A stretch of 64,000 bases of DNA, taken from Agromyces larvae (lineage in GTDB: Bacteria > Actinomycetota > Actinomycetes > Actinomycetales > Microbacteriaceae). Position numbers and translations under genes: made by a program. Positions within the stretch are counted from its first letter, which is position 1. Every line of letters begins with the position of its first letter. The stretch lies in assembly GCF_022811705.1 (NCBI RefSeq), contig NZ_CP094528.1, positions 930,001-994,000 of the forward strand. The letters are read 5' to 3'. The notes beneath the pieces were generated by a model that saw nothing but the letters and a program-made list of their open reading frames with translations, was not told where the DNA came from and ran no database searches. Shown here one piece after another: positions 28,222 to 34,545 of this stretch.

Positions 28222-28568
28222 GCGCGCCGTCGCCCGGCGGCGCGGCCCGGCTGCGGGAATGCCGCACCGCCCGTCCGCGTTGCCATCAGGTGGAGATGAG
28301 CGCCCGGCGAGGCGGTCGACGACACGTCGAAGGCCCGCCGATTCGGGGCGCAGAGGCATGCGGCGGTATAATGGGGGCAGGACCCGTTCAGGTTCGACCG
28401 GCGCGATCATCGTCGCGCGATCACGGCGGACTTGACATGGGTCCTCATAGTGTCCGAAAACACCGCGACCCGATCGCGGTGCGAGCGGGCGGCGCGACTG
28501 CGTCGCGCGAGGAGCACGAGCCGTCGGCGACGGGTACGCCGGAGTGACGGCGAGGAGAGGTGCAGAGT
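28222..28568 (+). promoter_or_regulatory. 347-bp gene-free region with the sigA promoter
   Basis: A perfect TATAAT at 28367-28372, rare in this GC-rich sequence, is the best -10 and gives a leader of about 190 nt. A TTGACA at 28432-28437 also occurs, but no acceptable -10 lies 16-18 nt after it. The end of the region has GAGGAGAGG before sigA. I see no riboswitch and no small ORF with coding character. Confidence 0.65.
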
Positions 28569-29972
<1,404 letters not shown>

Positions 29973-29979
29973 GCCGTCG

Positions 29980-31248
29980 GTGCGCGCGGGCTCCCTGCGT
30001 TATGGGCCGGCGATCCTCGCCGGCAGACTCACCAGATTCGCCGCCCGGCTGCGCAAGCCGGGCGGCGGTTCGGCGGTTCCGGGCCTGGTCGTCAACCGCA
30101 TCGCCCCGGGCTATCTGAGGCGCACCCTGTCGGGGTTCCCGCAGGGGCTGATCGTCGTCTCCGGGTCGAGCGGCAAGTCGACCACGACGAAGATGCTGGT
30201 GGCGATCCTGCGCGCCCACGGCGTGGACGTGTTCACCAATCCGTCGACCGCGAACATCTCGCAAGGGCTCACCTCGGCGCTGCTCGAACGCGCCGACTGG
30301 CTCGGCCGGGTGCCCGGCGACCTCGCGGTGCTCGAGATGGACGAGGGTCACGGCGCGCTCGTCATGCAGGGCGTCGACGCACGCATCGTGGCGCTCACGA
30401 ACGTGATGGTCGACCAGATCGATCGCTTCCACGACTCCGACATGGTGGTCGGGATGCTGCGCCGCATCGCCGAGCGAGCGCATGAGGCGGTCGTGGTGAA
30501 CGCCGACGACGCGGCGCTCCAGCGGCTGGCATCGGAGCTGGGCGGGACGGTCGCGGTGCACCGGTACGGCGTCTCCGACGAGGTGCTCGCCTCGGCGCCG
30601 CGCGGCCTCGGCTACACCGAGACCGCGCCCGATCGGCTCCCACCCGACGCGGGGGTCGTCGTCGAGTCGGTCGACGGGCGCCGTGCGGTGCTCGCCGACG
30701 GCGAGGCATCCGTCGAGATCTCGTTGCCCGCGCGAGGCATCCACTACGCCGTCGACGCGGCGACCGCGTACGCGACCGCGCGCGCGGCGCTCGGCGCGCG
30801 CTTCGACCGCGGCATCGCGGCGCGCGCACTGAGCGAGATCCCAGCGGTCTTCGGCCGTGGCGAGCGCACCACCGTCCGCGGCCAGGAGGTCGAGTTCGTG
30901 CTGGTGCAGAACCCGGCGAGCTATCAGCTCAACGTCGACGGCATCGAGCCGGGTTGCGAGCAGATCCTCTTCGCGGTCGGCTCCGATGTGCGCGATCCCT
31001 CCTATTTCTGGCCGACGGATGCCTCGAGCCTGCGCCGTGTCGCGATCGTCAGCGGGTCCAAGGCGTACGAAGCCGCGCTCATGCTCGCCTACGACGGCGT
31101 CGAGATCGACCGCGTCGAGCCCGACCTGGCCCGGGCGATCGACGACTTCCTGGCGGCACCCGCTCCCGAGCACGGCGTCAAGACCATCGTCTTCACCGCG
31201 GACTCGATGCGTCGGACCCGCGCCCACCTCGGACTCACGGAGGCCTGA
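29980..31248 (+). CDS. MurT-like Mur ligase family protein without zinc ribbon
   Basis: Canonical MurT, with GatD, amidates the D-Glu alpha-carboxyl of lipid II. This 422-residue protein keeps the Mur ligase ATP site (SGSSGKSTTTKML near 59), TNPSTANISQGL and LEMDEGHG. The Cys4 zinc ribbon usually inserted after the NADD motif is missing, and the only cysteine is in PGCEQ. The DUF1727-type C-terminal motif is altered to RDPSYFWPTDAS. Its start (GTG 29980, no ATG nearby) is 7 nt after sigA, and its stop overlaps the next start (TGATG). It is probably a divergent ligase of a peptidoglycan precursor. Confidence 0.8.
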   Translation: MRAGSLRYGPAILAGRLTRFAARLRKPGGGSAVPGLVVNRIAPGYLRRTLSGFPQGLIVVSGSSGKSTTTKMLVAILRAHGVDVFTNPSTANISQGLTSALLERADWLGRVPGDLAVLEMDEGHGALVMQGVDARIVALTNVMVDQIDRFHDSDMVVGMLRRIAERAHEAVVVNADDAALQRLASELGGTVAVHRYGVSDEVLASAPRGLGYTETAPDRLPPDAGVVVESVDGRRAVLADGEASVEISLPARGIHYAVDAATAYATARAALGARFDRGIAARALSEIPAVFGRGERTTVRGQEVEFVLVQNPASYQLNVDGIEPGCEQILFAVGSDVRDPSYFWPTDASSLRRVAIVSGSKAYEAALMLAYDGVEIDRVEPDLARAIDDFLAAPAPEHGVKTIVFTADSMRRTRAHLGLTEA

Positions 31249-31985
31249 TGACCTTCACCATCGCGGCGCTGGTGCCGTCGCTGCTGAACACCAACGGCGA
31301 TGCCGAGAACGCGGCCGTGCTCGCCCAGCGTCTGCGCTGGGCGGGGCACGAGGCCCGCGTCGCGCGGGTGGAGCGCGTCGACGAGCTGCCCGACCGGGTC
31401 GACGCCGTCGTGGTCGGCTCGGGCAACGACTCGTCGCTCGAGCCTGCACGCGAGCGACTGCTCACCATGCACGACGAACTGCGCCGGTGGGGCACCGAGG
31501 GCGTCCCGATCCTCGCCGTCGGCACCGGCTGGGAGCTGCTCAGCTGGGGCGTCGAGACCGCCGACGGCCGCGTGGTCGAGGGCCTCGGCGTCCTGCCCGG
31601 CCGCGCCGTGCCCCGTGCCGAGGGCCGCGTCACCGGCGAGATCGTGCTGCGATCGCCGCGATTCGGGCATCTCGTCGGGTTCGAGAACCACGCGCGCGAC
31701 GCGGTGCAGGCCGAGGCGTCGCCGCTCGGGCGGCTGCTCGCCGGCGCCGGCAACGGGCGCGGCTCGGGCCAGGAGGGCGTGGTCATGGGCTGGGTGCTCG
31801 GCACGCACCTGCACGGGCCGGTGCTCGCGAAGAATCCGGCGTTCGCCGACGCGATCCTCACCGAGGTCGCCTCGCGTGCCGGCGCCGAGTACGCGCCGGG
31901 GGAGCAGGCCGCCGTGGTCGACCGCTACGCGGACGAAGCCCGTCGGCTGCTGCTCGAGGCCGCGAAGGTCACGCTCCCCGAGTGA
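31248..31985 (+). CDS. GatD-like class I amidotransferase homologue lacking the nucleophile Cys
   Basis: Canonical GatD is the glutaminase that feeds ammonia to MurT. This 245-residue protein aligns with GatD over its full length. The nucleophile elbow reads ILAVGTGWELL, with Gly92 (codon ggc at 31521-31523) where GatD has Cys in A-I-C-G-G-Y. The histidine of the LHGP motif is retained (GTHLHGPVLAKNP, His189). The family motif GGGQD..Q is changed to VGSGNDSS. Glutaminase activity is therefore unlikely. It is coupled to the MurT-like gene by a TGATG overlap and ends before a strong terminator. Confidence 0.8.
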   Translation: MTFTIAALVPSLLNTNGDAENAAVLAQRLRWAGHEARVARVERVDELPDRVDAVVVGSGNDSSLEPARERLLTMHDELRRWGTEGVPILAVGTGWELLSWGVETADGRVVEGLGVLPGRAVPRAEGRVTGEIVLRSPRFGHLVGFENHARDAVQAEASPLGRLLAGAGNGRGSGQEGVVMGWVLGTHLHGPVLAKNPAFADAILTEVASRAGAEYAPGEQAAVVDRYADEARRLLLEAAKVTLPE

Positions 31986-32319: not shown

Positions 32320-32466
32320 GGCTCCTCCTCCAGTCGGTCACGCTCGCATTTCCGTTCCTCAATGTAAGCACGCGAAGAGCGGCATGCCCTCCACATGGGC
32401 TGGCATTTCGCTGAGCGCGTAGCGCCTGACGCGTGGTGTCGCCGGGCGTCAGTATCCTTGACCGTC

Positions 32467-34545
32467 GTGAGCTCCGACTATTCCGCCCGCCACCTCTCCG
32501 TGCTCGAAGGCCTCGAGGCCGTGCGCAAACGCCCGGGCATGTACATCGGCTCGACCGACTCGCGCGGTCTCATGCACTGCGTCTGGGAGATCATCGACAA
32601 CTCCGTCGACGAAGCGCTCGCGGGGCACGGCGACGACATCGAGGTCGTGCTGCACCGCGACGGCAGCGTCGAGGTGCGCGACCGGGCACGCGGCATCCCG
32701 GTCGACATCGAGCCGAAGACCGGGCTGAGCGGCGTCGAGGTCGTGTTCACCAAGCTGCACGCGGGCGGCAAGTTCGGGTCGGGGTCGTACTCCGCCTCGG
32801 GCGGCCTGCACGGCGTCGGCGCGTCGGTCGTGAACGCGCTGTCAGAGCGCCTCGACGTCGAGGTCGATCGGGGCGGCAAGACCTGGGCCATGTCGTTCCA
32901 CCGGGGCGAGCCCGGGCTGTTCGCCGACGGCGCCGACGGGCCGAGCCCCGCCTCGGCGTTCACGCCGTTCGAGGAGTCGAGCGAGCTCCGGGTCGTCGGC
33001 AAGGTCGCCAAGGGCGTCACCGGTACCCGCATCCGCTACTGGGCCGACTCGCAGATCTTCACCAAGGGCGCGGGCTTCCAGCTCGAGGAGCTCATCGGCC
33101 GGGCCCGCCAGACCGCGTTCCTCGTGCCGGGCCTCGGCCTCACCATCCTCGACCGGCGCGGCGACGAGCCCGAAGAGCACCGGTTCAAGTTCGACGGCGG
33201 CATCAGCGAGTTCGTCGAGCATCTCGCCACGGACGGTGCGGTGACCGACGTCTGGCGGCTCACCGGCGACGGCCGGTTCACCGAGACGGTGCCCGTGCTG
33301 AACTCGGGCGGTGCGATGGTGCCGACCGACGTCGAGCGCGAGTGCCATGTCGACATCGCGCTGCGCTGGGGCACCGGGTACGACACCGCGGTCCGTACCT
33401 TCGTCAACATCATCGCCACGCCGAAGGGCGGCACCCACCTCGCCGGGTTCGAGCAGGGGCTGCTGAAGTTCATCCGCGCGCAGGTCGAGCAGAACGCGCG
33501 CCGGCTCAAGGTCGGCAACGACAAGCTCGACAAGGACGACGTGCTCGCCGGCCTCACCGCGGTGCTCACCGTGCGGCTCGCCGAGCCGCAGTTCGAGGGC
33601 CAGACCAAAGAGGTGCTCGGCACGCCGGCGGTGCGGTCGATCGTGGCTTCGGTGGTGCAGAAGTCGCTGGCCGAGCGGTTCGCCTCGACGAAGCGCGACG
33701 ACAAGGCGCAGACCGCGCTGGTGCTCGACAAGGTCGTCGCCGAGATGAAGGCGCGCATCTCCGCGCGCACCCACAAAGAGACGCAGCGTCGCAAGAACGC
33801 GCTGGAGTCGTCGTCGCTTCCGGCGAAGCTCGCCGACTGCCGGTCGACGGATGTCGCGCACAGCGAACTGTTCATCGTCGAGGGCGACTCGGCGCTGGGC
33901 ACCGCAAAGCTCGCGCGCGACAGCGAACACCAGGCGCTGCTGCCGATCCGGGGCAAGATCCTCAACGTGCAGAAGGCGTCCATCGCCGACATGCTCGGCA
34001 ACGCCGAGTGCGCGGCCATCATCCAGACGATCGGCGCCGGGTCGGGTCGCACCTTCGACCTCTCGGCGGCACGGTACGGCAAGGTCATCATCATGAGCGA
34101 CGCCGACGTCGACGGCGCGCACATCCGCACGCTGCTGCTCACCCTGTTCTTCCGGTACATGCGGCCGATGATCGAAGAGGGCCGGGTCTTCGCGGCCGTG
34201 CCGCCGCTGCACCGCATCATCGTGCAGAACCCCGGCACGAAGCCGAACGAGACGATCTACACGTACTCCGAGGCGGAGTTCGCGGCCGTCACGAAAGACC
34301 TCACCCGGCGCGGCCGCAAGTTCGGCGAGCCGCAGCGCTACAAGGGTCTCGGCGAGATGGACGCGGATCAGCTCGCCGTCACGACGATGGACCCGAAGCA
34401 CCGGATGCTCCGCCGCGTGGGCGTCGCGGACGCCGAGCAGGCCGGCCGTGTCTTCGAACTGCTGATGGGCAACGACGTCGCGCCGCGCAAGGAGTTCATC
34501 ATCGACAGCGCCAACGGGCTGAGCCGGGATCGCATCGACGCCTGA
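32467..34545 (+). CDS. parE: DNA topoisomerase IV subunit B (type IIA ATPase subunit)
   Basis: This is the ATPase/TOPRIM subunit of the second type II topoisomerase, which decatenates chromosomes. The 692-residue protein has the GHKL motif IIDNSVDEALAG near residue 45, the ATP lid, and TOPRIM motifs IVEGDSALGTAKLARD near 475 and MSDADVDGAHIRTLLL near 545. The length and N-terminus fit ParE better than the longer GyrB. The GTG start at 32467 lies 8 nt after TATCCT (32453-32458). It is convergent with parC. The position close to sigA matches other actinobacteria. Confidence 0.9.
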   Translation: MSSDYSARHLSVLEGLEAVRKRPGMYIGSTDSRGLMHCVWEIIDNSVDEALAGHGDDIEVVLHRDGSVEVRDRARGIPVDIEPKTGLSGVEVVFTKLHAGGKFGSGSYSASGGLHGVGASVVNALSERLDVEVDRGGKTWAMSFHRGEPGLFADGADGPSPASAFTPFEESSELRVVGKVAKGVTGTRIRYWADSQIFTKGAGFQLEELIGRARQTAFLVPGLGLTILDRRGDEPEEHRFKFDGGISEFVEHLATDGAVTDVWRLTGDGRFTETVPVLNSGGAMVPTDVERECHVDIALRWGTGYDTAVRTFVNIIATPKGGTHLAGFEQGLLKFIRAQVEQNARRLKVGNDKLDKDDVLAGLTAVLTVRLAEPQFEGQTKEVLGTPAVRSIVASVVQKSLAERFASTKRDDKAQTALVLDKVVAEMKARISARTHKETQRRKNALESSSLPAKLADCRSTDVAHSELFIVEGDSALGTAKLARDSEHQALLPIRGKILNVQKASIADMLGNAECAAIIQTIGAGSGRTFDLSAARYGKVIIMSDADVDGAHIRTLLLTLFFRYMRPMIEEGRVFAAVPPLHRIIVQNPGTKPNETIYTYSEAEFAAVTKDLTRRGRKFGEPQRYKGLGEMDADQLAVTTMDPKHRMLRRVGVADAEQAGRVFELLMGNDVAPRKEFIIDSANGLSRDRIDA

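Follow-up and report, generated by a model that had tools for sequence, protein, structure and literature searches.

A MurT/GatD-like pair lacking the catalytic cysteine, and a CofE-like gene in the same chromosomal slot, as candidate ligases for the D-Glu alpha-carboxyl step of type-B peptidoglycan in Microbacteriaceae

Type-B cross-links of peptidoglycan, which run from position 2 to position 4 via the alpha-carboxyl of D-glutamate (D-Glu), have long been used to define the Microbacteriaceae. An enzyme assignment for the step at this carboxyl was not found in the accessible parts of the literature searched, a search whose scope left out most subscription journals. The closest described system is the lipid II isoglutaminyl synthase MurT/GatD. 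In Streptococcus pneumoniae, MurT Asn85 is reported to face the acceptor carboxylate (PMC6085368), while Tyr30 has been likened to the plug of an ammonia channel and MurT Arg135 shuts the ammonia gate in one published model (PMC6085368, PMC6113224). In Staphylococcus aureus, the GatD variant C94G loses glutamine-dependent amidation and keeps the ammonia-dependent reaction at pH 8.5 (PMC3266927). A different family is represented by CofE, in which a carboxylate is activated as an acyl phosphate and attacked by the amino group of glutamate (PMC10861534). The present analysis concerns a pair of adjacent MurT- and GatD-like genes of Agromyces larvae, found in a stretch of 64,000 nucleotides (contig NZ_CP094528.1, positions 930,001 to 994,000; hereafter the window), together with a CofE-like gene that occupies the same chromosomal position in relatives. 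The window GatD has no catalytic Cys, and such pairs are called Cys-less here. With fair rather than strong confidence, the pair is read as an amino-acid ligase acting on the D-Glu alpha-carboxyl, and the CofE-like protein as the enzyme of the equivalent step in relatives.

The two window genes overlap by one base, the stop of murT running into the start of gatD. The MurT product matches the Pfam domains Mur_ligase_M at 46.5 bits (cut-off 24) and MurT_C at 25.3 bits, barely above the cut-off of 25, and the GatD product matches GATase_3 at 61.2 bits (cut-off 27). The best solved chains in the Protein Data Bank are S. pneumoniae MurT for the former (E 4.5e-19, with S. aureus MurT also among the best) and S. 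aureus GatD for the latter (E 3.7e-26), values that place the resemblance beyond chance. The NCBIfam equivalogs NF045635 and NF045636 are not reached, the scores being 75.5 bits against a cut-off of 800 and 84.6 bits against one of 400. An earlier note, made from the letters of this DNA alone, had described a MurT/GatD-like pair that lost its glutaminase Cys, and these matches, with Gly92 at the Cys94 position, confirm that description; the window pair has probably lost glutamine hydrolysis. In the window genome (a single contig of 4.0 Mb) the one MurT_C match is the window MurT itself. Mur_ligase_M is matched six times there; from their location and scores these proteins are read as MurE, MurF, MurD, MurC, FolC and the window MurT. 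Of the named genomes compared, Agromyces binzhouensis has the nearest 16S gene, at 97.9% identity, which fits the genus Agromyces.

Residue numbers were transferred from S. aureus and S. pneumoniae by our own alignment mapping, and residue roles were taken from PMC6085368 and PMC6113224. In this alignment the window MurT retains the P-loop as well as residues matching E108, D349 and Asn85, and the CxxC zinc-ribbon motif was not found in it. The pattern recurs across 144 Cys-less pairs, designated types I to IV: Cys94 and the S. pneumoniae residues Tyr30 and Arg135 are absent from all of them, and Asn85, E108, R140, R304 and D349 are retained in all. The place of Cys94 is taken by Gly (110), Ala (22), Ser (7), Thr (3) or Asn (2), and GatD His189 is retained in 95 pairs and absent from 49. 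MurT of this clade has also gained residues, namely a His and an Asn (144 each), an Asp where the adenine-pocket motif has its second Asn (142), a Ser (142), a Lys (137), a Gln (135) and a further Asp (134); the second P-loop position has changed from Thr to Ser in 141 of 144, and the loop preceding D349 is shortened. Among 36 pairs drawn from nine Agromyces sequences, the median ratio of nonsynonymous to synonymous substitution (dN/dS) is 0.27 for GatD (0.11-0.45) and 0.21 for MurT (0.13-0.27). The earlier note had also held that the ATP-dependent ligase was kept, and this appears to stand, as the residues for ATP and for the acceptor carboxylate remain and those of the ammonia route are gone. 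Together these changes are read as the probable loss of an ammonia path and gain of a new conserved site, rather than as decay.

Table 1. Features of the Cys-less pair and the borders of its slot, in window coordinates
Feature	Position	Strand	Basis or remark
Primary sigma factor gene (presumably sigA/rpoD), left slot border	28560..29972	+	Open reading frame (ORF)
MurT-like Mur ligase ORF	29980..31248	+	422 amino acids (aa), initiated at GTG; type I of the Cys-less clade
P-loop GSSGKS (canonical MurT: GTNGKT)	30163..30180	+	MurT alignment
Asn, equivalent of S. pneumoniae MurT Asn85	30253..30255	+	Retained in 144/144 of the clade
Val replacing the gate Arg (S. pneumoniae MurT Arg135)	30409..30411	+	Arg gone in 144/144
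HYAVD motif replacing the canonical adenine-pocket xNxxN	30742..30756	+	Clade His 144/144, Asp 142/144
Asn and Asp specific to the clade, in the QLNVD motif that follows the QNP/KNP loop	30931..30939	+	Asn 144/144, Asp 134/144
Asp, equivalent of S. aureus MurT D349	30994..30996	+	Retained in 144/144
GatD-like class I glutaminase-fold ORF without catalytic Cys	31248..31985	+	245 aa
Gly92 codon (ggc) at the catalytic Cys94 position	31521..31523	+	Alignment to S. aureus GatD
His codon, equivalent of S. aureus GatD His189, retained	31812..31814	+	Alignment to S. aureus GatD
Topoisomerase ATPase subunit ORF (presumably parE-like), right slot border	32395..34545	+	ORF

In the six long Cys-less neighbourhoods the gene order is sigA, murT, gatD and then parE, and the genes that border the window pair are presumably sigA/rpoD and parE-like. 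Counted over entries with at least 60 upstream bases, in which one genome may recur via two routes, MurT is immediately preceded by the C-terminus of SigA in 138 of the 149 entries that are Cys-less, in 8 of 9 of type V (a divergent set described below) and in 0 of 71 canonical ones. Three of the 11 Cys-less entries without an upstream sigA are second copies; such second pairs, each in a genome that has another Cys-less pair (L108 in G277, L116 in G313, L443 in G268), maybe serve a second bridge residue.

Relatives without the pair usually hold another ligase gene at this position. The sigA gene was located in 30 genomes without a detected Cys-less pair and the slot was inspected in 20, of which 17 hold a CofE-like gene of the F420-0:gamma-glutamyl ligase family (about 232 aa), placed directly after sigA except in Gulosibacter hominis, where an aminotransferase gene precedes it. 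Two of the other three slots (G177, G209) hold no ligase gene, and the third belongs to Agrococcus jejuensis, which has a canonical pair elsewhere. Twelve named genomes have no detected pair, and all 11 of them whose slot was inspected carry the CofE-like gene; one of these is Agromyces seonyuensis, a species of the window's own genus. No CofE-like or ATP-grasp match was present in any of the six long Cys-less slots. Two slot proteins scanned match PF01996 above its cut-off of 25 bits, with scores of 50.2 and 56.7, and the one scanned against the CofE equivalog TIGR01916 falls below it (34.9 versus 180.65 bits). Companions in the 17 CofE-like slots are an ATP-grasp gene (ATPgrasp_ST) in 14, an alanine-racemase fold in 8 and an EctB-type diaminobutyrate aminotransferase in 2 (the single protein scanned scores 626.9 bits on NF006733, against a cut-off of 438). 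The aminotransferase ties the slot to wall amino acids; its two slots are those of Humibacter and Gulosibacter hominis (L530 and L546), and ectoine neighbours were not evident among the open reading frames called there.

In the genomes sampled, the two systems exclude one another. A profile of 11 slot proteins, searched against the 199 family genomes sampled, matches 27 of them at E < 1e-100, and in these 27 no pair of any kind was found, whether Cys-less, canonical or type V; the same sample has 121 genomes with a Cys-less pair, and no genome has both such a pair and a strong CofE-like match. Three more family genomes give weak CofE matches (1e-36 to 1e-45). Fisher's test on the exclusion gives 4e-13, a value that serves only as a guide because the genomes are related. 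Nine genera (Agromyces, Humibacter, g2, g71, g73, g77, g139, g141 and g147) hold both systems in different genomes, and this within-genus occurrence is better evidence than the P value.

The distribution of the pair was followed through 159 genomes of the order and 199 of the family Microbacteriaceae, with 50 named family genomes searched. The window GatD matched in 57 of the order genomes, and a profile of 23 GatDs matched in 168 of the family genomes at E <= 0.001, weak matches included, with pair residues inspected in 147 of these. In a tree of 226 concatenated MurT/GatD pairs the 144 Cys-less pairs group as a single clade with local support of 0.944, which is recovered with MurT alone (0.999) and, with type V also included, with GatD alone (0.991). 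All 144 members belong to Microbacteriaceae, and all 49 pairs in the tree from outside the family, drawn from the order sample, carry the Cys. The 199 family genomes divide into 121 with a Cys-less pair (4 of them also with a canonical one), 18 with a canonical pair only, 8 with type V only, 27 with the CofE-like gene and 25 in which none of these was found, so that the prediction of the earlier note, which placed the Cys-less pair in B-type species and the Cys-containing pair in A-type species, fails as stated: canonical pairs occur in 22 genomes of the family. Among the 50 named genomes, 33 carry the Cys-less pair (including Agromyces, Clavibacter, Leifsonia, Cryobacterium, Curtobacterium and Rathayibacter), 3 only a canonical pair, 2 type V and 12 no pair; the named canonical carriers are Agrococcus jejuensis, Pseudoclavibacter soli, P. 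caeni and, as a second copy, Leifsonia aquatica. Canonical and Cys-less pairs occur together in four sampled genomes (L111/L112, L113/L114, L109/L110, L117/L118) and in Leifsonia aquatica (L346, L308), which suggests that the two are probably not redundant.

Several side observations belong to this survey. Although murTgatD has been called universally present in Actinobacteria (PMC6085368), 57 to 59 of the 159 order genomes were matched. Type V pairs, which are very divergent, carry a His where the Cys would be and lack the GatD His; D349 is replaced by Asn, and the MurTs checked have a CxxC motif; examples are Schumannella soli (L394:5492-7611), L344, L345, L119 and L120, and in Schumannella and G333 an ATP-grasp gene adjoins the pair. 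Type V possibly represents a second, separate loss of the glutaminase. Split genes for GatD, a parE-like protein and a Mur ligase, seen in Frondihabitans sucicola (L343), Gulosibacter sediminis (L545) and Curtobacterium pusillum (L385), look like assembly errors or decay.

In the mechanism proposed, MurT would use ATP to phosphorylate the D-Glu alpha-carboxyl of the lipid-linked wall precursor, and an amino acid would attack the activated carboxyl in ammonia's stead. The added amino acid would most likely be the residue with which the type-B cross-bridge begins, either a diamino acid or glycine. ATP-dependent addition of glycine has reportedly been described in Micrococcus in older work, which is not used as evidence here. 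GatD would no longer hydrolyse glutamine but would stay in a structural role, completing the site, and in relatives without the pair the CofE-like ligase of the same slot, usually with its ATP-grasp partner, would carry out the equivalent step. The choice of the D-Glu alpha-carboxyl as probable substrate follows from the retained acceptor Asn and the homology to MurT. That the nucleophile is probably an amino acid rather than ammonia is suggested by the residues and by the replacement of MurT/GatD with a family whose characterised member, CofE, uses an amino acid. A role in the cross-bridge and a common step for the two systems are likewise inferred, as are the added residue named above and the remaining part given to GatD; the ATP-grasp protein may add a second residue. 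The slot evidence falls short of proof but favours a type-B wall enzyme that ligates an amino acid to the D-Glu alpha-carboxyl. The wider view, in which the sigA-parE slot is the missing locus of the type-B cross-bridge, where two non-homologous ligase systems that both aminoacylate this carboxyl swap repeatedly and a dead glutaminase is kept as part of a ligase, we consider evenly poised. For the original suggestion that the pair aminoacylates D-Glu, the clade's confinement to the family within the order sample, the lost ammonia-route residues and the CofE swap speak in favour, and the presence of the pair in only 121 of the 199 family genomes speaks against; the same count rules out the pair as the sole, universal type-B enzyme.

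Other findings also weigh against an amino-acid ligase of this kind. Of the 25 family genomes without any counted system, 7 have uninspected GatD matches of about 1e-19 to 1e-23; the 18 genomes with only a canonical pair count on the same side. The Cys-less genome G301 has a weak CofE homologue as well (E 6e-36), and alanine-racemase-fold genes adjoin several Cys-less pairs too and may be housekeeping. The correspondence with wall chemistry is likewise imperfect. The wall of A. aureus is of type B2gamma, written D-Glu-L-Dab (Dab, diaminobutyrate; PMC5217419), D-Dab bridges D-Glu and D-Ala in Clavibacter (PMC9603630), and Intrasporangium carries Gly on the D-Glu alpha-carboxyl (PMC3035309); the diamino acids reported elsewhere are D-Lys in Frigoribacterium, ornithine (Orn) in Frondihabitans, D-Orn in Homoserinimonas and Lys or Orn in Salinibacterium (PMC7033078). 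Set against these, the Dab-containing Agromyces and Cryobacterium have type I pairs and Clavibacter, also with Dab, type II; Frigoribacterium and Frondihabitans have type III; and Homoserinimonas (a metagenome bin) and Salinibacterium have the CofE-like gene instead of a pair. There is thus no one-to-one match between ligase system and diamino acid, and the idea that types I, II and III simply encode the bridge amino acid is unsupported, Homoserinimonas and Salinibacterium having the CofE-like gene.

The main rival, which we hold to be unlikely, is an ammonia-dependent isoglutaminyl synthase in which D-Glu is amidated from free ammonia and GatD is a scaffold only. It draws on the S. aureus C94G variant, whose retained ammonia-dependent activity (PMC3266927) means that loss of the Cys alone implies no new nucleophile, on the retained ATP and acceptor residues, and on Clavibacter muropeptides, where amidation or hydroxylation of D-Glu is reported (PMC9603630) and where each of three genomes has one pair only, Cys-less. 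The statement in the earlier note that the D-Glu alpha-carboxyl cannot be amidated was too strong in light of that report. Free ammonia would, however, leave unexplained the new conserved His, Asn, Asp and Lys of MurT, the genomes in which a canonical pair coexists with the Cys-less one, and the swap with a family in which the enzymes characterised so far take an amino acid.

Distinctly doubtful is a ligase of the same class with another acceptor, whether some other precursor carboxyl (such as that of position 3 or of the bridge residue) or a non-peptidoglycan wall polymer. A CofE-like gene lies in a Streptococcus pyogenes operon for wall modification (PMC13059722), and the family of the slot ATP-grasp partner is named as sugar-transfer-associated; the invariant acceptor-facing Asn (144/144), the homology of the ligase to MurT and the diaminobutyrate aminotransferase of two slots point instead to D-Glu. 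We consider it very improbable that the pair is a decaying or regulatory pseudo-amidotransferase retained without catalysis. Five different substitutes for the Cys (G, A, S, T, N) and the failure to find the pair in 78 of 199 family genomes would suit such a fate, but the ATP-site residues are conserved, dN/dS stands at about 0.2-0.3, and 17 of the 20 inspected slots hold another ligase-family gene rather than showing plain loss.

An extra Mur ligase in the genomes without the pair was also considered and rejected. Of 11 such named genomes searched, seven show five Mur_ligase_M matches. The other four show a sixth, which in two genomes is one piece of a split match, in one a second FolC-like match and in Gulosibacter sediminis a weak additional match. 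The last is a weakly scoring Mur ligase at the usual murE place (L382:6550-8190); this genome has its full MurE-like gene at another location. In Salinibacterium and Homoserinibacter (L378, L379) a strong MurE-like gene is found outside the wall-synthesis cluster, near genes that seem to encode a penicillin-binding protein and RidA. Five neighbourhoods of displaced murE genes and one wall-gene cluster held nothing on the D-Glu step.

The finding names two candidate systems for the type-B D-Glu alpha-carboxyl step. The Agromyces species with either system are the organisms to compare, and the genomes with both kinds of pair are natural material for separating amidation from the proposed ligation. 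If the proposal is true, an amidotransferase has turned into an amino-acid ligase through losing its ammonia source, and two unrelated ligase families replace each other in one chromosomal slot.

Compared with the MurT/GatD synthase of S. aureus and S. pneumoniae, the window pair shares the operon order, the Mur ligase middle domain, the MurT C-terminal domain, the glutaminase-fold partner, the ATP-site residues, the acceptor-side Asn and D349. It differs in that the catalytic Cys, the channel-plug Tyr, the gate Arg and the zinc-ribbon motif are all missing, the adenine-pocket motif is changed, a QLNxD motif is new and the loop before D349 is shorter. The ligases MurC to MurF form an acyl phosphate that is attacked by an amino acid. 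The window MurT scores 48.1 bits on the NCBIfam murF model, far under the cut-offs of the MurC to MurF models, and, unlike those enzymes, has no match to the N-terminal Mur ligase domain and has a GatD partner. The slot CofE-like protein has PF01996 in common with the F420-0:gamma-glutamyl ligases CofE and FbiB, known enzymes that ligate an amine to a carboxylate (PMC10861534), yet it lies far under the CofE equivalog cut-off and is located between sigA and parE; its family is unrelated to MurT. Finally, the MurT and MurT-like proteins of archaeal pseudomurein are MurT relatives working in a non-standard wall, the MurT-like ones without GatD (PMC11915815), and belong to another lineage than the window pair.

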